45,043 nucleotides of DNA, from the NCBI GenBank assembly GCA_015486055.1, contig WFSJ01000015.1:1-45043 (forward strand), read 5' to 3'. Below are positions 23,181-33,552 of the stretch, piece by piece. Source of the stretch: Acidobacteriota bacterium (GTDB lineage: Bacteria; Acidobacteriota; Aminicenantia; S016-38). The position numbers were made by a program, and so were the translations under genes. The first letter of the stretch is position 1. The number at the start of each line of letters is the position of its first letter. The notes below the pieces were generated by a model. It did not search any database, was not told the DNA's origin, and saw only the letters and a program-made list of their open reading frames with translations.

Positions 23181-24026
23181 TTACCTTAGAACATTTATGG
23201 CCCTCTTTTTTACCTGAAGAGAAATTGTGGAAAGAAGGGGGCCGCTTTCTCCATCATTATGAGAAAGTTGTGGAGGTTCAAGAAAGATTAATGTTTCTTT
23301 TCTTTTAATTTTCTTGTAAAGACTTAATCTTTCTATTCCCCCTGTAAATAATCTTGGAAAATTTGTTAAGGCATAACTCAAAGGAGGCTTCCTCAGAAAA
23401 ACTATATCAATTAACCCATCTCCTGGCTTGGCCCCGGGTGCTATCCTTGCTTCCCCTCCATATTGGGGGAAATTTGCCAGGGCAATTAGAAAGGCTCTCC
23501 CCTCCTGATCTTCAAATCTGTAGGAAAATTCCTTGAAGCCTATGTAACCCTTCAGACCAGCGATGATATATGGAGAGATACCTCTATTTTTGGAATTTTC
23601 AAACTCATGAGCAATATACCCGTCAAATCCTACTCCCGCAACATTTATAAAATACATTTTCTCATTTATGATTCCGAGGTCTAACCTAAGTTTTTTTGGA
23701 TTGAGGAGCTTTGTGGCAGCTTTTTCAAGGTTTAAAGGGGTTTTAAGGTTCCTTGCCAACCCGTTGCCTGACCCATAGGGCAAAAGCCCGAGGTAAGCAT
23801 GACTCTTGTATAGGTAGGGAAGAATACTATTTACGGTTCCATCACCCCCTGCTGCAAAAACTATTTCTGGAGATAATCTTTCCAGTTCCTCATTAGTTTC
23901 CCTTTTCCCTTTTGTCTTAAGAATTTTTATCTCATATCTTTTAGATAATATCTTTGGTATTGTTTCCCTCAGTTTTTTCCTTGTTCCCGCTTCCGGGTTC
24001 AATAAAAGCACCGCATTTTCTTTCAC
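23181..24026 (-). CDS. Diacylglycerol/lipid kinase family protein (YegS/DgkB-like)
   Basis: The 281-residue protein belongs to the DAGK catalytic family. It opens with NPEAGTRKKL and has the nucleotide-binding GGDGTVNSIL (about residues 59-68), then LLPYGSGNGLARNL and VGFDGYIAHEF, and ends with PLLSTISLQVKKRAINVL. Such enzymes phosphorylate diacylglycerol or related lipids; the substrate cannot be told. The start codon is GTG at 24026, preceded on its strand by aggaaaa. It diverges from the murG-murJ gene with only 35 nt between starts, and converges on exbD. Confidence 0.88.
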   Translation of the reverse strand: MKENAVLLLNPEAGTRKKLRETIPKILSKRYEIKILKTKGKRETNEELERLSPEIVFAAGGDGTVNSILPYLYKSHAYLGLLPYGSGNGLARNLKTPLNLEKAATKLLNPKKLRLDLGIINEKMYFINVAGVGFDGYIAHEFENSKNRGISPYIIAGLKGYIGFKEFSYRFEDQEGRAFLIALANFPQYGGEARIAPGAKPGDGLIDIVFLRKPPLSYALTNFPRLFTGGIERLSLYKKIKRKETLIFLEPPQLSHNDGESGPLLSTISLQVKKRAINVLR

Positions 24027-24061: not shown

Positions 24062-27000
24062 ATGAAGATTGCTTTAAGTGGGGGAGGAACAGGAGGACAT
24101 GTTTATCCTCTTCTTGCTATAGCAGAAATGCTAAGGGGTGAATTTTTCTATTTTGGAACAAGAAAAGGTGCTGAGGCAAAAATTGTTGAAGGGATGGATT
24201 TTATCCCTATCCCTGCAGTTCCTTTTCCCACCTCAAAAAAGGACATACTGGGATTTTTGAAATTCTTATTTGTTCTTCCGATCGGATTTTTTCTGGCCTA
24301 TAAGAAGTTGAGAAAGATCAGGCCTGTGGTGCTTATATCCAGCGGAGGATATGTTTCAGTCCCTGTTGTCCTTGCTTCAAGGCTTCTTTCAATTCCCATA
24401 TTGGTGCATGAGCAAAACCTCATTCCCGGCAGGGCTAACAGAATTTTGTCTTCATTTGCGGATGTGCTCGGAGTAAGCTTTCCGGATACTAAAAAATTTC
24501 TCAAGGGGAGGGTTTATTTTACAGGGTATCCCTTAAGAACCAAGATAAAGAAGATAGAGAAGGAGAAGGCAAGGAAAAAACTCGGATTGCGAAAAGGTGC
24601 ATTTGTAATCCTTGTTACGGGAGGAAGCAGAGGGGCAAGGTCAATAAACAGAGCTGTAGCAAAGCTTTCTCCCAAACTTCTAAAGGAAGGTTACTGGATA
24701 ATTCATTCAACGGGAATAGGAAGTGAAGGCTATAATGCTTATGAAGACACGAAGAAGATACTTTCCGAGGTAGGAACCGAGGGGGATGAGAGATATTTCC
24801 TGAAAGAGTATATCCATGAGATGGAGATAGCCTATTCTGCTGCTGACCTTGTTATATCCAGGGCAGGGGCCGGGACAGTAGAAGAAATAAAAAGGGTGAA
24901 GATCCCGGCAATTCTTGTTCCTAAAATAGGTCTTCCTGGAGAGCATCAGCTATCTAATGCAATTTTCCTTAACAGAGCAGGGGTTGCTGAAATAGCCTTT
25001 GAGGATTATATTGCAGGCCTTTCTACTGAGGTCCTCTTCCAGCATATAAAAAGATTGAAAGAAAAGATAGAAGAGGTAAAAGCCAATTTCTCAAAACTTT
25101 CGGAGGAGAAGCCTGAGATCGGGATTAAGGATTTATTTAAAAACGTTGTTTCAGGAAGGAGGACTAAGAGGAAGAGCTTTTATCTTGTGTGGAGAGGGGA
25201 AAAATATCCCCTTATTTTTTCCAGAAATACAATTTCATCTTCCCTTTTTTCCACAGTTAGGATAAAAGATTTTAGGGGGAAAATAATATTCAGGGTTAAA
25301 GATGGAAAAGGTATATTGGAAGGATATGGAGAAATAGGCAGAAGAGCCAGAATAAACCTCCAGGGTCAGGAGCTGGAATTTGTGGAAGAGGAGGAAGAGA
25401 TAAGGGAAGAAATTCAGAGAAGCTTTAAAGGAAGGTTTGCATCCTCAGCATTTGGCATTCTGATTTCAAGAAGTTTCGGGTTCCTAAGGGAGATATTTAT
25501 AGGGGGATATTTTGGGGCGAGTCTCCAGACCGACATTTTCGCAGTTGCCCTTATGGTTGCGAATTTCTTCAGAAGGGTTGTTGGGGAAAACACTATGGAT
25601 AATGCTTTTCTCCCCACATTTCTCAGGGTTAAACATAGAGGGGGAAATCACTGGAAGCTCGCCTATTCTGTGCTTTCCTTTTTTCTTATTTCCTCTCTTT
25701 CTCTTGTAATCCTTCTCGAAATTACAATTCCCTCCTGGTTCAGGTACATTGCCCCAGGATTTGTTAAGAAAGGAGTTCTTTCTCAAGGGATGGCTCTTAC
25801 AAGGTTAATGCTTCCCTTCCTAATTATTGTTTCTATAGCAGGATGGGGCTCTTCCCTTCTTAAAGCATCTGACAGATTCGCCCATGCCGAGGGCTCAGCA
25901 TCATTTTATAGTCTCGGGATAATTTTCTCAGTCGTTTTTCTCTCATGGAAATTTGGGATTTTTTCCCTTGGGATAGGCGTTCTCGTTGGGGGTGTTCTTC
26001 AGGTCATTTATCTCCTTTTCCTTCTTTCGTCTTCAGAGACTAAAGAAAGATTAGGAAACAGCGGGAAGTTCTCATTTTCCTTTCAGGGAGCTCTGTGGAT
26101 TATTGTTCTTCTTAGCCTCCCAATTCTTTTGGATGTTTCGTTTTCCAAGCTTTCGGATGTGGTTGATAAGATCCTTGCCACGCCTCTTGAAAATGGTGCT
26201 GTTGCAGCTCTTTATTTTGCTGCAATAGTATTCAGGCTTCCAGTAAATGTTATAGGAAATTCAATAAACAATGTTGTGCTTAAGGATTTCTCCTCTAAGC
26301 TTGCATCCAGGCAGAAGGAAGAAACTTTAGGGGTACTTTACAGGGGATTTGAACTTCAGTTCCTGACCCTCCTTCCTGCTACTTTATTCACCTTAGTATT
26401 TGCAAGTCCCATAATTGAGATCCTCTTCAAGAGAGGCGCTTTTGATATGAAAGCTGTTTCGGTAACCTCTGCGTGTCTTGGTTTTTACTCTCTTTCAATA
26501 ATTGCTTGGGGACTAAGCTCCATGGCAGGAAAGATATTCTCTGCCAGACTTGAAACTCATATATCAATGTTTACCAATGCCTCAGCTATAATATTGAATG
26601 TTATTCTCAGCATAATTCTGGTTAGAACTTCCCTGAGTTTTAAAGGCCTTGCATTGGCAACTTCAATTTCTCTTTATTTTGCAGCAATCCTTAGATTTTT
26701 TATACTTTCTTTTAGGATGAAAAGGGATAAGATGGAAATAAAATGGAGAAGGATAGGGAAGTCCTTCTTGAAGTGGTTTACAGCTTCCTTGATAAGCGTG
26801 GGTAGTGGCTATGCATTTTTCAGCTTGCTCCGAGGTATAAGGATAATCTCCCACTTTTTCTCTCTACTTTTGGTCCTTACCCTTTCTTTCACCTTAGCGG
26901 TTGTTTTCTTCGTTCTATTTTACTTCATGACGAAATCATCTGTGAGGAAGAGAAAAAGGGAGACAGTTTCTCCGCTTCTTCTTCCCCCCGAGCAGATGCT

Positions 27001-27631
27001 TGATGCCCTGAGAAGAGAGCCCGAGCCTTACAGGGAAGAGATGGAGCTAAGAACAGAGGCCCTTCTTCGCTCTCCGAACTGGAAGATGAGAAATATTGGG
27101 GTTAAATTAGTTGAAGTATTTGGATATGAAAGATTTAGAGATGTTCTTGAGAAATTTTTGAGGGAGGAAAAAGTTGGCTTTTTAAGGAGGAATTCTGCAA
27201 GGGCGCTTTCCAAACTTTCACCGAGTGAAAAGAGCCTAAAAGCCTTGATTGATGCGTGCAAAGATAATTATTACGAGGTAAGGGCGGAGGCTGCAAGAGG
27301 CATAGGGATTTATGGAATTTCTTCGGAGGATGTAAAGGTGGTGCTTTACAGATTGCTTGAGGATGGAAGATTTGAAGTTAGGATGAGAGCCATTCTTTCT
27401 TTGGCGAGTCTTTTTGGAAAGGAGATTTTCCCAAGGATAAGGAGATTTTATTCTCGGGGAAACTATAAGTTGAGACTTGCCTGCACCGAAGCCATTTGTA
27501 AACTTCTTGAAAGGGGGATGATAACGAAGGAGGAAGCGGAAGAGGAGGGGAAAAAGATAATAGATATAAGTGAGGGTTTTAGTGTCTTGTTTCCTATAAA
27601 GGAAAAGATAGCCGAGTTTAGAGGCAAATAA
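24062..27631 (+). CDS. MurG-MurJ fusion protein with C-terminal HEAT repeats
   Basis: One uninterrupted 1189-codon frame. Residues 1 to about 360 are MurG, the transferase that adds GlcNAc to lipid I: GGGTGGHVYP (7-16), HEQN (116-119), RAGAGTVEEI (from 267) and QLSNA (296-300). Residues about 362-452 are a small, probably beta-rich domain that I cannot assign, ending in an acidic run. Residues about 455-950 are MurJ/MviN, the lipid II flippase: SRSFGFLREIFIGGYFGA, TDIFAVALMVANFFRR and many membrane helices. The second of two closely spaced arginines important in E. coli MurJ is Gly here. Residues about 970-1180 are HEAT-type alpha repeats (YYEVRAEAARGIG; RFEVRMRAILSLASLF). The stop overlaps mraY by one base. 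Fused MurG and MurJ would make lipid II and flip it in one polypeptide. The HEAT tail may dock divisome or elongasome partners; this is inference. Confidence 0.92.
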   Translation: MKIALSGGGTGGHVYPLLAIAEMLRGEFFYFGTRKGAEAKIVEGMDFIPIPAVPFPTSKKDILGFLKFLFVLPIGFFLAYKKLRKIRPVVLISSGGYVSVPVVLASRLLSIPILVHEQNLIPGRANRILSSFADVLGVSFPDTKKFLKGRVYFTGYPLRTKIKKIEKEKARKKLGLRKGAFVILVTGGSRGARSINRAVAKLSPKLLKEGYWIIHSTGIGSEGYNAYEDTKKILSEVGTEGDERYFLKEYIHEMEIAYSAADLVISRAGAGTVEEIKRVKIPAILVPKIGLPGEHQLSNAIFLNRAGVAEIAFEDYIAGLSTEVLFQHIKRLKEKIEEVKANFSKLSEEKPEIGIKDLFKNVVSGRRTKRKSFYLVWRGEKYPLIFSRNTISSSLFSTVRIKDFRGKIIFRVKDGKGILEGYGEIGRRARINLQGQELEFVEEEEEIREEIQRSFKGRFASSAFGILISRSFGFLREIFIGGYFGASLQTDIFAVALMVANFFRRVVGENTMDNAFLPTFLRVKHRGGNHWKLAYSVLSFFLISSLSLVILLEITIPSWFRYIAPGFVKKGVLSQGMALTRLMLPFLIIVSIAGWGSSLLKASDRFAHAEGSASFYSLGIIFSVVFLSWKFGIFSLGIGVLVGGVLQVIYLLFLLSSSETKERLGNSGKFSFSFQGALWIIVLLSLPILLDVSFSKLSDVVDKILATPLENGAVAALYFAAIVFRLPVNVIGNSINNVVLKDFSSKLASRQKEETLGVLYRGFELQFLTLLPATLFTLVFASPIIEILFKRGAFDMKAVSVTSACLGFYSLSIIAWGLSSMAGKIFSARLETHISMFTNASAIILNVILSIILVRTSLSFKGLALATSISLYFAAILRFFILSFRMKRDKMEIKWRRIGKSFLKWFTASLISVGSGYAFFSLLRGIRIISHFFSLLLVLTLSFTLAVVFFVLFYFMTKSSVRKRKRETVSPLLLPPEQMLDALRREPEPYREEMELRTEALLRSPNWKMRNIGVKLVEVFGYERFRDVLEKFLREEKVGFLRRNSARALSKLSPSEKSLKALIDACKDNYYEVRAEAARGIGIYGISSEDVKVVLYRLLEDGRFEVRMRAILSLASLFGKEIFPRIRRFYSRGNYKLRLACTEAICKLLERGMITKEEAEEEGKKIIDISEGFSVLFPIKEKIAEFRGK

Positions 27632-28722
27632 TGTTCTATTATTTAGGGAAAATTTTTCTTGGACAATTCCCGGCCTCAAGGCTCCTCGTCTATGTTAGTT
27701 CAAGGACTATTTTTGCAGGTCTGACTGCTTTGCTTCTGACCCTGATCCTTGGGGGTCCGATAATAAGACACCTTTATCATAGGGGGATAAGGGATTATCC
27801 AAGGAGTTACATGGATTATGGAAAAACAAAGAGGGGAACACCTACAATGGGAGGCTTCATAATTCTTCTTTTTACCGGTGTTTCAGCCCTGTTGTGGTGC
27901 GATCTTTCCAATAAATTTGTCGAAATTCTTTTTTTGGCTCTCTTGTGGTTTTCCTTTTTAGGAGGTCTTGATGATGTAATTAAGCTGAGGGTTGGAGGGG
28001 GACTGAGCAGATGGCCCAAGCTTTTTGCCCAGTTTACTTTTGGTTTTGTAATTTCCTTAATCATATTCAGACCTGAGATATCCCCTCTTCCCCAGGATAT
28101 AGCTCTTGGTTTTTACATTCCATTTGTGAAAAATCCCCTCCTCGTTCTTCCCCCTGTGATTTACACTCTTTTTATAATAATTTATTATGCTTTTGTGACG
28201 AATTCAGTCAACGTAACCGATGGACTTGATGGTCTTGCAATAGTCCCTTCAATAATGACGATTTCGGTTTTCGGTGTTTTTGCTTATGTTATGGGAAATG
28301 TAAAGATAGCCTCCTACCTTCTTTTTCCTTATGTTCCGGGAACCCATGAAATCCTGATTTTTTCAGCAGCGCTTATCGGCTCAGCTATAGGCTTTTTATG
28401 GTTTAATTCTTTTCCTGCTGAGGTTTTCCTTGGGGACACGGGTTCTCTGCTTATCGGAGGGTTTATAGCAACTCAGGCAGTTCTTCTCAAACAGGAGGTC
28501 CTTTTCCTCTTTGCAGGAGGAGTTTTTGTCCTGGAAATTTTCTCCACCTTCATCCAGGATTATATAGGGATAAAGCTTTTGGGAAAGAGAATATTATATA
28601 GAGCACCGCTTCACCATACTTTCCAGCATTTAGGGTGGGGGGAGACAAAGATCGTCATAAGACTCTGGATAATCTCCTTTATTCTTTCGCTGGTAGCCCT
28701 TTCCTCCCTGAAGATAAGATGA
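27631..28722 (+). CDS. mraY: Phospho-N-acetylmuramoyl-pentapeptide transferase MraY
   Basis: MraY makes lipid I from UDP-MurNAc-pentapeptide and undecaprenyl phosphate in the inner membrane. The 363 residues contain the family motifs KRGTPTMGG, the DDxxK pair Asp114-Asp115, NVTDGLDG (194-201), GDTGSL (268-273) and the LHHTFQHLGWGE histidine region (His328-329), with about ten membrane helices. Its ATG shares the last A of the murG-murJ stop (TAATG), so translation is probably coupled. Confidence 0.97.
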   Translation: MFYYLGKIFLGQFPASRLLVYVSSRTIFAGLTALLLTLILGGPIIRHLYHRGIRDYPRSYMDYGKTKRGTPTMGGFIILLFTGVSALLWCDLSNKFVEILFLALLWFSFLGGLDDVIKLRVGGGLSRWPKLFAQFTFGFVISLIIFRPEISPLPQDIALGFYIPFVKNPLLVLPPVIYTLFIIIYYAFVTNSVNVTDGLDGLAIVPSIMTISVFGVFAYVMGNVKIASYLLFPYVPGTHEILIFSAALIGSAIGFLWFNSFPAEVFLGDTGSLLIGGFIATQAVLLKQEVLFLFAGGVFVLEIFSTFIQDYIGIKLLGKRILYRAPLHHTFQHLGWGETKIVIRLWIISFILSLVALSSLKIR

Positions 28723-29453
28723 TAAGAAGGATAGTTGATATAGAAGAGCTAAAAAGCGCAATTGAAATTCAGAAGAGGGCTTGGGAGTTTGAGTCATTGG
28801 AGGATGTTATTCCGCTGCCAATTTATGTCCTTTCGGCCCAATTTGGAGGGTTAGTTCTCGGTGCCTTTTATGATGATAAAATGGTAGCTTTTTCGCTTGC
28901 TTTTCCGCTTCTTGAAGGAAGAGAAATTGTGCTTCACAGCCATATGACTGCGGTTCTGCCCGAATTCCAGGGCAAGGGAATAGGATACAGGCTTAAAATT
29001 TTTCAAAGAGAAGAGGCGAAAAAGATGGGCTACAAAAAGATTACATGGACTTTTGATCCTCTTCAGGCAAAAAATGCTCATTTTAATATAAACAAGCTCG
29101 GTGCAAGAATTTTCAAATATTTCAGTGATTTTTATGGACCCATAAGTTCAAAGACTTCTAAGGGATTTCCCACTCACAGATTTCTTGTGGAATGGGGATT
29201 GGAAGGGAATTTCAGAAAGAATGAAAAAGAACCAAGCTTTATTCTCTTTGAGGATGGCCCAGGAGATATAAAGTTAAAGAAGGAGAAGGTAATAGGAGTA
29301 AGGATCCCAACTGATATAAATTCTCTTCCTTATGGGAAGGCGATGAAATGGTTTACTGCTGTTGATCAAGCCTTTAAGTTCCTTATCCCTGAGTATGAAA
29401 TATTCAGTTTCGGTAGAGGTGATATTTGTTATTACAAAATGAGAAGAAAATAG
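28719..29453 (+). CDS. GNAT-family acyltransferase (D-amino-acid succinyltransferase type?)
   Basis: The 244 residues carry a GNAT fold: the acyl-CoA loop is seen in VLPEFQGKGIGYRLK (about residues 85-99), followed by GYKKITWTFDPLQAKNAHFNINKLGA. This second segment is typical of the COG3375-like group often encoded beside OSBS/NSAR enzymes. In Geobacillus kaustophilus a GNAT succinyltransferase works with an N-succinylamino-acid racemase to convert D- to L-amino acids. The gene after this one is of that racemase family, which supports a shared pathway, though the substrate is inferred. ATG 28719 overlaps the mraY stop by 4 nt; the frame is open further upstream inside mraY. Confidence 0.8.
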   Translation: MIRRIVDIEELKSAIEIQKRAWEFESLEDVIPLPIYVLSAQFGGLVLGAFYDDKMVAFSLAFPLLEGREIVLHSHMTAVLPEFQGKGIGYRLKIFQREEAKKMGYKKITWTFDPLQAKNAHFNINKLGARIFKYFSDFYGPISSKTSKGFPTHRFLVEWGLEGNFRKNEKEPSFILFEDGPGDIKLKKEKVIGVRIPTDINSLPYGKAMKWFTAVDQAFKFLIPEYEIFSFGRGDICYYKMRRK

Positions 29454-30526
29454 AGGGGTTTCTAACAAAACTTCCTCTTGTGCATGCTTTCAAGACAAGT
29501 TTCGGCAAGGAAAGCGAGAGAAAAATTCTCATTGTGAAAGCCACGAAAGGCGAGTATTCAGGATGGGGAGAGATAACGGCAGGAGAACTTCCACTTTATA
29601 ATGAGGAGACAATTTCTTCGGCCATTCTCGCTTTGAAAGAATTCCTTTTTCCCCTTGCATTAAAATGCGGACTTAAGCCTAAGTGTTTTGAAGAACAAGC
29701 TGAAAGATTTAAAGGGAATAGGATGGCAAAGGCGGGAATTTCCCTTGCTTTATGGGATCTTAAGGGTAAAATAGAAGGGAAACCTCTTTGGAAATTGTAT
29801 GGGGGTCAGAGAAAAGAAATCCCTGTAGGGGTAAGCATAGGAATTCAAAGGACCGTAGATGAGCTTGTAGAAAGAATTTCCCATTTTTGGGGCGAGGGTT
29901 ATCTGAGAATTAAGATAAAGATAGCTCCTGAATGGGATAGGGAAGTTATCAGGATTATAAGGGAGAATTTTCCCCATTTACCTCTTGGTGTGGATGCGAA
30001 TTCGGCCTATAATAAGGACGATTTTGAACTTCTGAAATCCCTTGATGAATTCAAGCTACTTTTCCTTGAGCAACCATTATACAATAATGATCTCTATTTT
30101 CACTCTCTTCTCAGGAAGAAGATAAATAATCCTGTAGCCCTTGATGAGAGCATAACTTCAGCAAGGAAACTTGAGGAGGCCTATTTTATGGGTTCCCTAT
30201 CCATAGCTAACATAAAGGTTGGAAGAATCGGCGGAGTGAGAGAAGTCCTAAAAGCTTCTAAGTTTGGCAATGATAAAAGCCTCCCCTTTTTTTGTGGGGG
30301 GATGCTTGAAAGTGGGGTTGGAAGGGCGCACAATCTTCATCTCGCTTCCCTTCCCCCTTTTGTTCTTCCTGCTGACCTTTCTGAGACAAAAAGGTATTTT
30401 CACGATGATGTGACACCTGAATTTACATTTTCCTCTCCTGGATACATTTCAGTCCCTCAGGGAGATGGAATAGGGGTGGAGGTTTTTGAGGGAAAGGTAA
30501 GAGAAAAAGTGATATTAAGTTTTTAG
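29426..30526 (+). CDS. menC: o-Succinylbenzoate synthase / N-succinylamino acid racemase (enolase superfamily)
   Basis: The 366-residue protein is an MLE-type enolase-superfamily enzyme. The N-terminal capping domain has LPLVHAFKTSFGKE. The barrel has the catalytic KxK (LRIKIKI), metal ligands in VDANSAY, LEQPLY and ALDESI, and the opposing Lys in NIKVGRIGG. FCGGMLESGVGRAHNLHLASLP closes the active site. OSBS makes o-succinylbenzoate for menaquinone, and NSAR racemises N-succinyl amino acids; many members do both. No other men genes are in the window, and the GNAT partner favours an NSAR role. The only reasonable start is TTG 29426, 28 nt inside the GNAT gene, preceded by gaggtga. It converges on waaF with a 12-nt overlap. 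Confidence 0.85.
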   Translation: MLLQNEKKIEGFLTKLPLVHAFKTSFGKESERKILIVKATKGEYSGWGEITAGELPLYNEETISSAILALKEFLFPLALKCGLKPKCFEEQAERFKGNRMAKAGISLALWDLKGKIEGKPLWKLYGGQRKEIPVGVSIGIQRTVDELVERISHFWGEGYLRIKIKIAPEWDREVIRIIRENFPHLPLGVDANSAYNKDDFELLKSLDEFKLLFLEQPLYNNDLYFHSLLRKKINNPVALDESITSARKLEEAYFMGSLSIANIKVGRIGGVREVLKASKFGNDKSLPFFCGGMLESGVGRAHNLHLASLPPFVLPADLSETKRYFHDDVTPEFTFSSPGYISVPQGDGIGVEVFEGKVREKVILSF

Positions 30527-31417
30527 GGCGTCAAGAATCTTTTTCCTCACTTCTTCCACTTTTATCTGGTTCATACATATATGTTTTTTTTCAGGACAGG
30601 TTTTCCTATGGCAGGGTCCACAGGGAGGATTTTTGTAAATATATGAGTTTTTCTGTCCCCATGGGGCTGTAAGTTTTGGGTCGGTAGGCCCGAATATGGG
30701 AAGGACTTTTGTGCCAACTGCTGCAGCAATGTGTATTGGTCCTGTGTCGTTTCCAACAACAAGCCTTGCTCTTGAAAGTATAGCTGGTAATTCTCCAAGA
30801 GAAGGAATTGAATATTCCATTTTTCCTGAAGCTCTTTTCAGTAGCTCCTCCTCAAATTTCGCACCTACATAGAGCACGGAAAAGTTATCCTTGACTAAGG
30901 ATTCTCCCAGCTTCCTGAACTTTTTTTCACCCCATCTTTTAGCCTGCTTTGAAGCGCCGGGAAGAATTATCACATCGTATTCCTTTTCCTCTTGAGAAAT
31001 CCTCAGTTTCATTTCCTCATGGAACTCTCCCACTAGATACCTGGCGAGATAATTGTATTGGAGAACCTGATGAAGATTTTTCCTCGGCGGGATTCTATCC
31101 GTAAGAAGGAAGCTTCTTATGTCTGTGGAATATCCTATCCTCCTCTTAATTCCACAGAGGAAAAAATGAAAGGCCGAGGAAAAGGAATTGGTGAAAAGAA
31201 GTCCTATTTCTATCCTTGGGCATTTCTTAAAGAGGCCTTTGTAAGGTATTATTTTCTTGTAGAATTCCTGCCCCCGGAAGATTTCCTGAAGCCACTTTTT
31301 TCCCAGAAGGATTAGAGAATAATTCTTGCTCAGGGCCTTAAGGGCAGGGATAGTCATTATACAATCCCCTAACCAGTTTGGCATCCTTACGATTATTTCC
31401 TTCTTTGTTTCTTCCAT
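30515..31417 (-). CDS. waaF: ADP-heptose:LPS heptosyltransferase (glycosyltransferase family 9)
   Basis: Transfers heptose to the LPS inner core at the cytoplasmic face of the inner membrane. The 300 residues start with RMPNWLGDCIMTIPAL, the GT9 opening, and contain LPGASKQAKRWGEKKF and the ADP-heptose-binding segment VVGNDTGPIHIAAAVGTKVLPIFGPTDP. They end with the heptosyltransferase II-like cluster PCGPCHRKTCPEKKHICM. The ATG (31415-31417) interlocks with the waaA ATG on the other strand. agggaa lies upstream on its own strand. Confidence 0.9.
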   Translation of the reverse strand: MEETKKEIIVRMPNWLGDCIMTIPALKALSKNYSLILLGKKWLQEIFRGQEFYKKIIPYKGLFKKCPRIEIGLLFTNSFSSAFHFFLCGIKRRIGYSTDIRSFLLTDRIPPRKNLHQVLQYNYLARYLVGEFHEEMKLRISQEEKEYDVIILPGASKQAKRWGEKKFRKLGESLVKDNFSVLYVGAKFEEELLKRASGKMEYSIPSLGELPAILSRARLVVGNDTGPIHIAAAVGTKVLPIFGPTDPKLTAPWGQKNSYIYKNPPCGPCHRKTCPEKKHICMNQIKVEEVRKKILDALKT

Positions 31418-32630
31418 GCTAAAATTCCCTGTGTTTTTCAGAATTTTTTCCTACTTGATTTTTCCCTTTGCCCTAATATTTTACCTTTTAAAGAGCAAAA
31501 TAAAAGGGAAGAGGATGATTGTGGGCAAAAGGCTTCATCCTCCTGCGATTGCAAAAAAGGAGAGGAAGAGGCTTTGGCTCCATGGGGTTTCAGTTGGGGA
31601 GGTTGTTTCCCTTTATCCTCTTGCTAACCTTTTAGAAGAAAAGGGAATTGAGGTTCTCGTATCAACAACGACTTCAACCGGTATGGAAATTGCCAGAAAG
31701 AAGCTCGCGAAATTTTATTTGTTTCATTTTCCCTTTGACCTACCATTCGTTGTCAGGAAGTTCCTGAGAGTGATAGACCCCAACGGAATAGTTATAGCTG
31801 AAACAGAACTGTGGCCAAATTTTATAAATGAATCCTGGAGGATGGGAATTCCGATCTTTCTTGTAAATGGAAGAGTTTCTGAGGGAAGCCTTAGAGGATA
31901 TAGAAAACTGAGACCCTTTATGAAAAATCTCCTTGGAAAGTTCAATCTAATTTGCGTTCAAAGTGAAGACTACAGGGAGAAGTTTATAGATATTGGAGCG
32001 GCTCCCTCTAAAGTCGTGGTTACTGGTAATATGAAGGCTGATTTTGAAATAGGACTTTCCTCTGCAGAATTTCCAATTGATGAACCATACATGGTGGTAG
32101 GCAGCACAATGAGCAGGGAAGAGGATAGATTCGTTCTTGAGGCTTACAAAGATGCCAAGCTGAGAGAAAAACTTGTTATAGCTCCGAGGCACCCTGAAAG
32201 AACGTGGGAAACATTTGAGGAAACTGCAAAATTTGGATTTAAGGTTCAGAAGAAAAGCAAGGTTGAGAAAGAATGGGATGTGCTTGTTCTTGATACCATG
32301 GGGGAACTTCCGCATTTTTATTCTAAGGCCGAGCTTTCTATAATAGGTGGTAGCATTGGAGAATTTGGAGGGCATAATCTCCTTGAACCTGCCTATTTTG
32401 GTTCCCCTATTGCATTTGGGCCTCACATGGAAAACTTCAGGGACCTTTCAGAGGAATTCCTGAGGGAAGAGGCGGCCATAATTTTTAAGACAAAGGAAGA
32501 GCTTTCGAATATTATGAGAATTGCAGTAGATGGAAAGCTTGCGGAAAAAGGGAAAAAGGGAAGGGAAGTGCTTAACAAATTGAAGGGAGCTACAAAGAAA
32601 AATGCAGAACTCATCCTCGCTAAGATTTGA
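31416..32630 (+). CDS. waaA: 3-deoxy-D-manno-octulosonic acid (Kdo) transferase
   Basis: Adds Kdo to the lipid A precursor at the inner membrane. The 404 residues from ATG 31416 begin with a membrane anchor (FRIFSYLIFPFALIFYLL). WLHGVSVGEVVSLYPL, VSTTTSTGMEIARKK, AETELWPNFI, NGRVSEGSLRGYRKL and GGSIGEFGGHNLLEPAYFGSPI are all Kdo-transferase signatures. The frame is open upstream to 31326, but the anchor argues for 31416. No ribosome site is visible on this strand (pyrimidine-rich upstream, because it is waaF coding). lpxK overlaps its end by 29 nt. Confidence 0.93.
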   Translation: MLKFPVFFRIFSYLIFPFALIFYLLKSKIKGKRMIVGKRLHPPAIAKKERKRLWLHGVSVGEVVSLYPLANLLEEKGIEVLVSTTTSTGMEIARKKLAKFYLFHFPFDLPFVVRKFLRVIDPNGIVIAETELWPNFINESWRMGIPIFLVNGRVSEGSLRGYRKLRPFMKNLLGKFNLICVQSEDYREKFIDIGAAPSKVVVTGNMKADFEIGLSSAEFPIDEPYMVVGSTMSREEDRFVLEAYKDAKLREKLVIAPRHPERTWETFEETAKFGFKVQKKSKVEKEWDVLVLDTMGELPHFYSKAELSIIGGSIGEFGGHNLLEPAYFGSPIAFGPHMENFRDLSEEFLREEAAIIFKTKEELSNIMRIAVDGKLAEKGKKGREVLNKLKGATKKNAELILAKI

Positions 32631-33552
32631 ATTGGCTTCCCCGCTTCTTTTTTTCTACAGGTGGCTCAATTATTTCAGGAGGGAATTTGTAAAGGGAAAA
32701 CTATCGCCAATCCCATCTGTATCAATAGGAAATTTGGCCTTTGGAGGGACAGGAAAAACCCCGGTAACAATAGCAGTTGCAGAGCATTTCTTGAGAAAAG
32801 GCATGAGAGTCGGTGTGGCAACGAGAGGTTATGGTGTGAAAATTAAGGGTATAAGAACTTATACTCCCAGGGAGGAGATAGATCCATGGGAAGCAGGAGA
32901 TGAGGCTGCCGTTTTAAGAGAAAATTTGAAGGACGCATGGATTTTTGCTGGAAAAAAAAGGGAAATCTCAGCAGAATTGGCAAAGGCAGAGGGTCTTGAC
33001 ATCCTCATTCTTGATGATGCTTTCCAATACCTTTCCTTAAGGAAAATTGAGGTTGTTCTTCACTCATCAAAAATTCCATTTTTTTATTTAAGGGAGTCTA
33101 AAGCTGCTCTTAAATATGCTGATATCCTGCTTTTTCCTGAAGGTGAGGAAGGAGAACGCCTTCCAGTAAGTTTTAGTTACAGGCTTTTTCCGGAAAATAT
33201 TCCAGATTCCAAAGTTTATCTTGTTTGTGGCATCGCAAGGCCTGAAACATTTTTCTCCCTTTTTGACCCTTCTAAGATCGAAGGGATGAAAACCTTCCCT
33301 GACCATTGGAGACATAAAAAAGAGGATCTTGATAATATATACAGAATGGCGGCTGAGACTCTTATCGTAACCACTGAGAAGGATTTCGTTAAGTTGAAAA
33401 AGCTTCCAAACTTTAGAGGTGGAATTCTTCCAATAAAATGGAAAGCGAAAATACAAGAATTTTTTTTTGATATACTTGAGAAAATCCTTGAAAAAGTTCC
33501 TTTACGAACTAAAATAAAAGAGAAGGGGAATGAATTTAATAAATTTAGGTAG
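32602..33552 (+). CDS. lpxK: Tetraacyldisaccharide 4'-kinase LpxK
   Basis: Phosphorylates the lipid A disaccharide at the inner membrane. The 316 residues have SIGNLAFGGTGKTPVTIAVA (P-loop, about residues 41-60), TRGYGVK, GDEAAVL, and DDAFQYLSL where most relatives have DDGFQHxxL. VTTEKDFVKL is near the C-terminus. The Gly-to-Ala and His-to-Tyr changes are unusual but leave the aspartates. It overlaps waaA by 29 nt, and rph begins 5 nt after its stop. Confidence 0.92.
   Translation: MQNSSSLRFELASPLLFFYRWLNYFRREFVKGKLSPIPSVSIGNLAFGGTGKTPVTIAVAEHFLRKGMRVGVATRGYGVKIKGIRTYTPREEIDPWEAGDEAAVLRENLKDAWIFAGKKREISAELAKAEGLDILILDDAFQYLSLRKIEVVLHSSKIPFFYLRESKAALKYADILLFPEGEEGERLPVSFSYRLFPENIPDSKVYLVCGIARPETFFSLFDPSKIEGMKTFPDHWRHKKEDLDNIYRMAAETLIVTTEKDFVKLKKLPNFRGGILPIKWKAKIQEFFFDILEKILEKVPLRTKIKEKGNEFNKFR

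Follow-up and report, generated by a model that had tools for sequence, protein, structure and literature searches.

In E. coli, the lipid II-forming glycosyltransferase MurG (1f0k) and the lipid II flippase MurJ (6cc4, 7wag) are separate proteins. A MurJ carrying an additional cytoplasmic domain occurs in mycobacteria, where MviN has a pseudokinase tail that recruits FhaA. In that case the extra domain is a pseudokinase rather than MurG and HEAT repeats, and the chain contains no catalytic partner. Several enzymes of peptidoglycan synthesis have been reported as fusions, namely MurE-MurF in Bordetella, MurB-MurC, MurG-MurC, MurC-Ddl, MraY-MurG and FtsW-MurG (PMC6420597, PMC4929429). In the accessible text of these papers, the fusions resemble the protein described here in that adjacent wall-synthesis genes are joined in one chain, some of them for consecutive steps. 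However, none of those described in this text pairs the lipid II-forming enzyme with a flippase, and neither a HEAT module nor permuted domain orders are mentioned there. The first-pass annotation of the present locus knew of no characterised MurG-MurJ fusion. Our full-text search of open-licence papers agreed with this and found neither a MurG-MurJ fusion nor a MurG-HEAT protein, other MurG fusions having been published. Cell-wall research has yet to settle whether MurG hands lipid II directly to the flippase or lipid II diffuses between them.

We analysed a stretch of 45,043 nucleotides (the window). It constitutes contig 15 of an Acidobacteriota genome of 1.86 Mb from an uncultured lineage; the genome is 98.9% complete and consists of 60 contigs. 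Positions 24062-27631 of the forward strand form a single ORF of 1189 aa that has no internal stop. The features of this locus are as follows.

24062..25141, + strand: MurG domain (residues 1-360), a GT28 glycosyltransferase predicted to make lipid II; identified by Pfam/NCBIfam, invariant site residues and an AF2 model
25142..25426, + strand: linker (residues 361-455), partly strand-forming, with no in-frame ATG
25427..26956, + strand: MurJ domain (residues 456-965), 14 transmembrane helices, the sole MurJ match of the genome
26225..26236, + strand: codons 722-725 (IVFR), in which Ile722 occupies the E. coli R270 site and Arg725 the E273 site in an ungapped alignment to E. coli MurJ
26957..27628, + strand: MurG-associated HEAT module (residues 966-1189), Pfam HEAT_2
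27631..28722, + strand: mraY (lipid I synthase), TIGR00445 261 bits; its ATG shares one base with the stop of the fusion

The two MurG domains of Pfam were found at residues 3-134 (Glyco_transf_28, E 3e-29, 102 bits against a cut-off of 26.2) and 182-346 (Glyco_tran_28_C, E 7e-27, 95 bits against a cut-off of 22). The Pfam match of MurJ covers residues 483-921 (E 2e-71), and Pfam and NCBIfam together place MurJ at 462-960. HEAT_2 (PF13646) matches residues 997-1081 (E 7e-15, 55.5 bits against a gathering cut-off of 27.7), with HEAT repeats extending overall over about 997-1115. For MurJ, the NCBIfam model TIGR01695 gave 270.2 bits, which exceeds its equivalog cut-off of 235.55. The MurG model TIGR01133 gave 237 bits and did not reach its equivalog cut-off of 250.25, being slightly below it. 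Because 110 of 396 genomes of the phylum are without any match above 250.25, this cut-off is strict for the phylum. The first-pass annotation had read MurG, linker, MurJ and HEAT repeats as one uninterrupted frame, and this is confirmed by the ORF, by the Pfam and NCBIfam matches and by 33 full-length fusions. The motifs that it named (GGTGGH, HEQN, RAGAGT, SRSFGFLRE and FFRR) are all present in the fusion protein. Its one-base overlap with mraY is also correct, since the last base of the TAA stop (27631) is the first base of the mraY ATG.

To find the same domain order in other genomes had been proposed as a check, and the order recurred in further genomes of the window's family (f1) and in family f12. 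Full-length fusions of MurG, MurJ and HEAT were found in 33 separate genomes (6 in f1, 19 in f12, 5 in f9 and 3 in f24, a family of another class), and several further f12 fusions, additional to these 19, end at contig edges. The order MurG-linker-MurJ-HEAT is that of f1 and f12 (25 genomes), while MurJ-MurG-HEAT is that of f9 and part of f24 (8 genomes). The fused frames range from 1073 to 1328 aa, and mraY is the next gene at every fused locus examined. Frames of 1034-1195 aa in family f6 were considered as FtsW-MurG fusions, but this was rejected, as Pfam finds MurG only.

The same full-length protein, with 67% identity, is encoded by JAMOUL010000358.1, a same-genus MAG deposited as Candidatus Aminicenantes. 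Across MurG, linker, MurJ and HEAT, the differences between the two genes by codon position were 0.58-0.66 for third positions and 0.12-0.28 for second positions. Each of the four parts thus differs mainly at third positions, which shows that the junctions are translated and constrained at the protein level. An assembly or sequencing error at the junctions had been considered as a possible cause of the fusion, and the fragmentation of the genome into 60 contigs would favour it. However, sequence constraint continues through the junctions, and the same architecture is present in 25 f1 and f12 genomes and, permuted, in 8 more. The probability of an artefact is thus negligible. Separate murG and murJ genes in the relatives at this locus had also been considered. 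They were not found within f1 and f12, and more distant relatives have MurG-HEAT without MurJ.

Seven f12 genomes of genus g49 (G123, G126, G129, G131, G132, G133 and G135), up to 93% complete, have neither the fusion nor a true mraY, and most of them retain two SEDS genes (FtsW/RodA). Their joint absence supports the linkage of the fusion and mraY, although part of it may be one locus lost in assembly. In these genomes, either assembly has missed one locus or lipid II is made in an altered way.

The HEAT profile was searched in genomes of this phylum only. The module was found in 48 genomes of the 396-genome sample, and apart from a few fragments in short frames all matches lie either in frames of 660-820 aa or in the fusions of 1073-1328 aa. 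The shorter frames belong to families f15, f24, f27, f35, f37, f40, f43, f44, f65 and f79. They represent the same MurG and HEAT family with mraY next, but MurJ is outside the chain. MurG lies upstream of HEAT in 20/20 opened loci, followed by mraY where the contig reaches that far, and a free-standing copy of the module was not recognised in this sample. Within the window's class, strong matches to the profile are fusion tails only. The tails of f1/f12 and of f9 form one family (hhalign 99.7%). Our alignments showed the conserved motifs GF.RRN, D.Y(Y/F)E.R and N..R and a conserved end of the S.(G/E)F-P.F type, and the window tail has them in the same frame as MurG.

These sequence comparisons indicate that the HEAT module is a specific module that goes with MurG and with the neighbourhood of mraY. 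The first-pass annotation was right about a HEAT tail at the C-terminus. The tail is not, however, a general docking add-on or a tail of MurJ: it is found in MurG frames beside mraY, and MurJ came between MurG and HEAT. Since the module occurs in MurG frames and no free copy was recognised in the sample, the original state was most likely a MurG-HEAT protein next to mraY, to which MurJ was added afterwards. A HEAT module dedicated to MurG is apparently undescribed. MurG-HEAT proteins of 660-820 aa just upstream of mraY (L079-L098) are widespread in other Acidobacteriota families, and they too are apparently undescribed.

In the MurG+HEAT tree, f1 and f12 fell together (96/95) and were grouped with the unfused MurG-HEAT families f37, f40, f43 and f65 (91/93), whereas f9 and both the fused and the unfused kinds of f24 were grouped with f15 (98/99). 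Earlier trees lacking the MurG-HEAT relatives had suggested one ancestral fusion that was later permuted. This was ruled out by the MurG+HEAT tree, in which a single origin of all fused forms was rejected (AU test, p = 5e-8; the tested group was chosen by architecture, independently of the tree). A single event for f9 and fused f24 was not rejected (p = 0.061). MurJ thus joined the unit of MurG-HEAT and mraY on at least two occasions, and in two orders.

A single clan (100/99) is formed by MurJ from the fused lineages together with MurJ from the unfused operon of f24. In the f24 genus g125, murG-HEAT follows murJ and overlaps it by 31-37 nt in a different frame, its ATG being inside murJ; the sister genus g63 has murJ and murG-HEAT as one fused frame. 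A frame change inside an overlap of the g125 type would give the fusion in one step. A third gene order of the same set was seen in the f37 genome G219, where a divergent murJ (L080:9133-10761) follows murG-HEAT and mraY.

The MurG part is strictly conserved at its site. H13, E117/N119, R159, S189, R267, E275, Q296 and N299 are invariant in 43/43 aligned family members, as are the catalytic and UDP-GlcNAc-binding residues as a whole (His of GGTGGH, HEQN, GGS, RxGA, TVxE, Q and N). The fusion shares with E. coli MurG and MurJ their folds, the MurG site residues and MurJ R18, R24, D39 and R52. In all six f1 sequences R18, R24, D39, R52, R53 and E57 of MurJ are kept. The window MurJ differs from that of E. 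coli in having Ile and Arg for R270 and E273. R270 is essential in E. coli MurJ (PMC4790310), and so is its counterpart R255 in T. africanus MurJ (PMC6465408, PMC9973255). This site is Ile in f1, mostly non-Arg in f12, and Arg in f9 and f24. The E273 site, three residues further on, is Arg in f1 and in 14/19 f12 sequences. The simplest reading of this pattern is that the essential arginine has shifted by about one helical turn in f1 and f12, and the lineage would then show the shift of an arginine thought essential for MurJ. Some g49 fusions (among L026, L027, L028, L030, L032 and L050) have a MurJ without R18, R52 or E57 and an intact MurG, which suggests a changing or decaying flippase in that genus.

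It may therefore be asked whether the MurJ domain flips lipid II at all, or whether it anchors MurG in the membrane or senses lipid II for it while another transporter does the flipping. The loss of R270 in f1 and nearly all f12, and the further losses in g49, are consistent with such a role. However, f1 retains the other six residues and has an arginine three positions past the R270 site, and its MurJ part shows strong protein-level conservation (74% identity between two g1 genomes). Profile searches also found only one MurJ match, along with one MurG match, in the window genome and no match to Amj, so we regard a MurJ domain without flippase activity as very unlikely.

In the AF2 model of the window protein (mean pLDDT 83.5, pTM 0.57), MurG is well formed, MurJ has 14 helices and the HEAT repeats make a solenoid; the linker is of low confidence. 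The model of the f9 protein has pLDDT 85.4 and pTM 0.64. Foldseek matched the MurJ part to MurJ 7waw (TM 0.88 by target) and the MurG part to MurG 3s2u (TM 0.82 by target). A structure prediction had been suggested for a MurG-MurJ interface, but only the individual domains were modelled well; their relative placement was not supported, and neither the window nor the f9 model supports a domain interface. The MurJ loops follow the positive-inside pattern, with 32 K/R inside and 12 outside. MurJ of E. coli has an even number of helices and both ends inside (PMC4790310). Because the helix number is even and the pattern positive-inside, MurG and HEAT are both placed on the cytoplasmic side in either order.

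The linker is poorly conserved (49% identical between the window and G002) and its length varies: it measures about 95 aa in the genus of the window and about 160 aa in f12, whereas in the sister genus g2 it is in effect absent, with about 12 aa. The f12 linkers (L016, L012, L013, L021 and L030) contain a conserved domain of about 110 aa that looks FHA-like by eye; the one Pfam match in favour of this is weak (a T3SS FHA-type domain, E 0.17). Comparison of the f1 with the f12 linkers by hhalign gave a probability of only 21%, and AF2 confidence was low.

A fused DNA frame could still give separate proteins by internal initiation or by proteolysis in the linker. The low-confidence prediction of the linker would fit this, as would one candidate internal start for MurJ in the window (AGGAG, 9 nt, GTG at codon 441 of P0001). 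However, the GTG site is not conserved in G002, no such site occurs in the other f1 or f9 junctions, and the window junction has no in-frame ATG. The internal start was rejected, and we consider the production of separate proteins highly improbable.

We consider it fairly likely that the protein is a bifunctional lipid II synthase-flippase that brings three consecutive lipid-linked steps into one assembly. The single chain, the recurrent architecture, the intact MurG site, the MurJ fold with most of its cavity charges, the mraY neighbour and the repeated fusion of MurJ are observed; from these we infer both activities, the HEAT partner and the direct hand-over. MraY would make lipid I, to which the cytoplasmic MurG domain would add GlcNAc to give lipid II. 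In the adjacent membrane, MurJ as part of the same chain would pick up and flip that lipid II. On the cytoplasmic side, the HEAT module, long associated with MurG, most likely binds MraY and/or MurG, given its history with MurG and mraY. A single chain implies that MurG and MurJ are co-localised, and lipid II could plausibly be handed over directly within it. Because the join was made at least twice and in two orders, the formation and flipping of lipid II are probably carried out by one physical unit. In E. coli, where the enzymes are separate, lipid I and lipid II are passed along rising affinity, and MurJ takes all lipid II (PMC9046198). Tethering would thus shorten a hand-over that already exists.

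The fusion might instead only set stoichiometry and co-localisation, with the domains acting like their free counterparts and lipid II diffusing between them in the membrane. Permuted orders and a linker of about 12 to 160 aa argue against one fixed geometry between active site and cavity, so that seemingly none is needed, and the AF2 models contain no firm interface. Some of the known fused peptidoglycan enzymes in the accessible text of PMC6420597 also pair non-consecutive steps. However, the fusion of this pair on at least two occasions and its lasting place next to mraY speak for a coupling of consecutive steps, and we think a role in stoichiometry and co-localisation alone unlikely. A stronger form of the synthase-flippase reading is a true lipid II conveyor, which would lead from the active site to the flippase cavity in one chain. 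The cavity of f1 and f12 would have been rebuilt, by the shift of its essential arginine, because its substrate comes from the tethered MurG and not from the bulk membrane, and HEAT would clamp MraY so that lipid I becomes flipped lipid II in one complex. We put this forward as a tentative possibility.

A covalent pair, joined at least twice independently, in both orders and beside mraY, is strong natural evidence that these steps form a unit. The single-chain protein also offers a test object for channelling, MurG-MurJ geometry and antibiotic access.

The neighbourhood of the fusion contains further genes of envelope interest. A YegS/BmrU-type lipid kinase (23181-24026, - strand) is divergent from the fusion and conserved in G002, and is possibly tied to lipid carrier supply. 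Lipid A/LPS genes (heptosyltransferase, Kdo transferase and LpxK) are found nearby at 30515-33552, so the host of the fusion is probably diderm. A GNAT acetyltransferase-like ORF of uncertain start codon (28635-29453, + strand) shares about 88 nt with the end of mraY.
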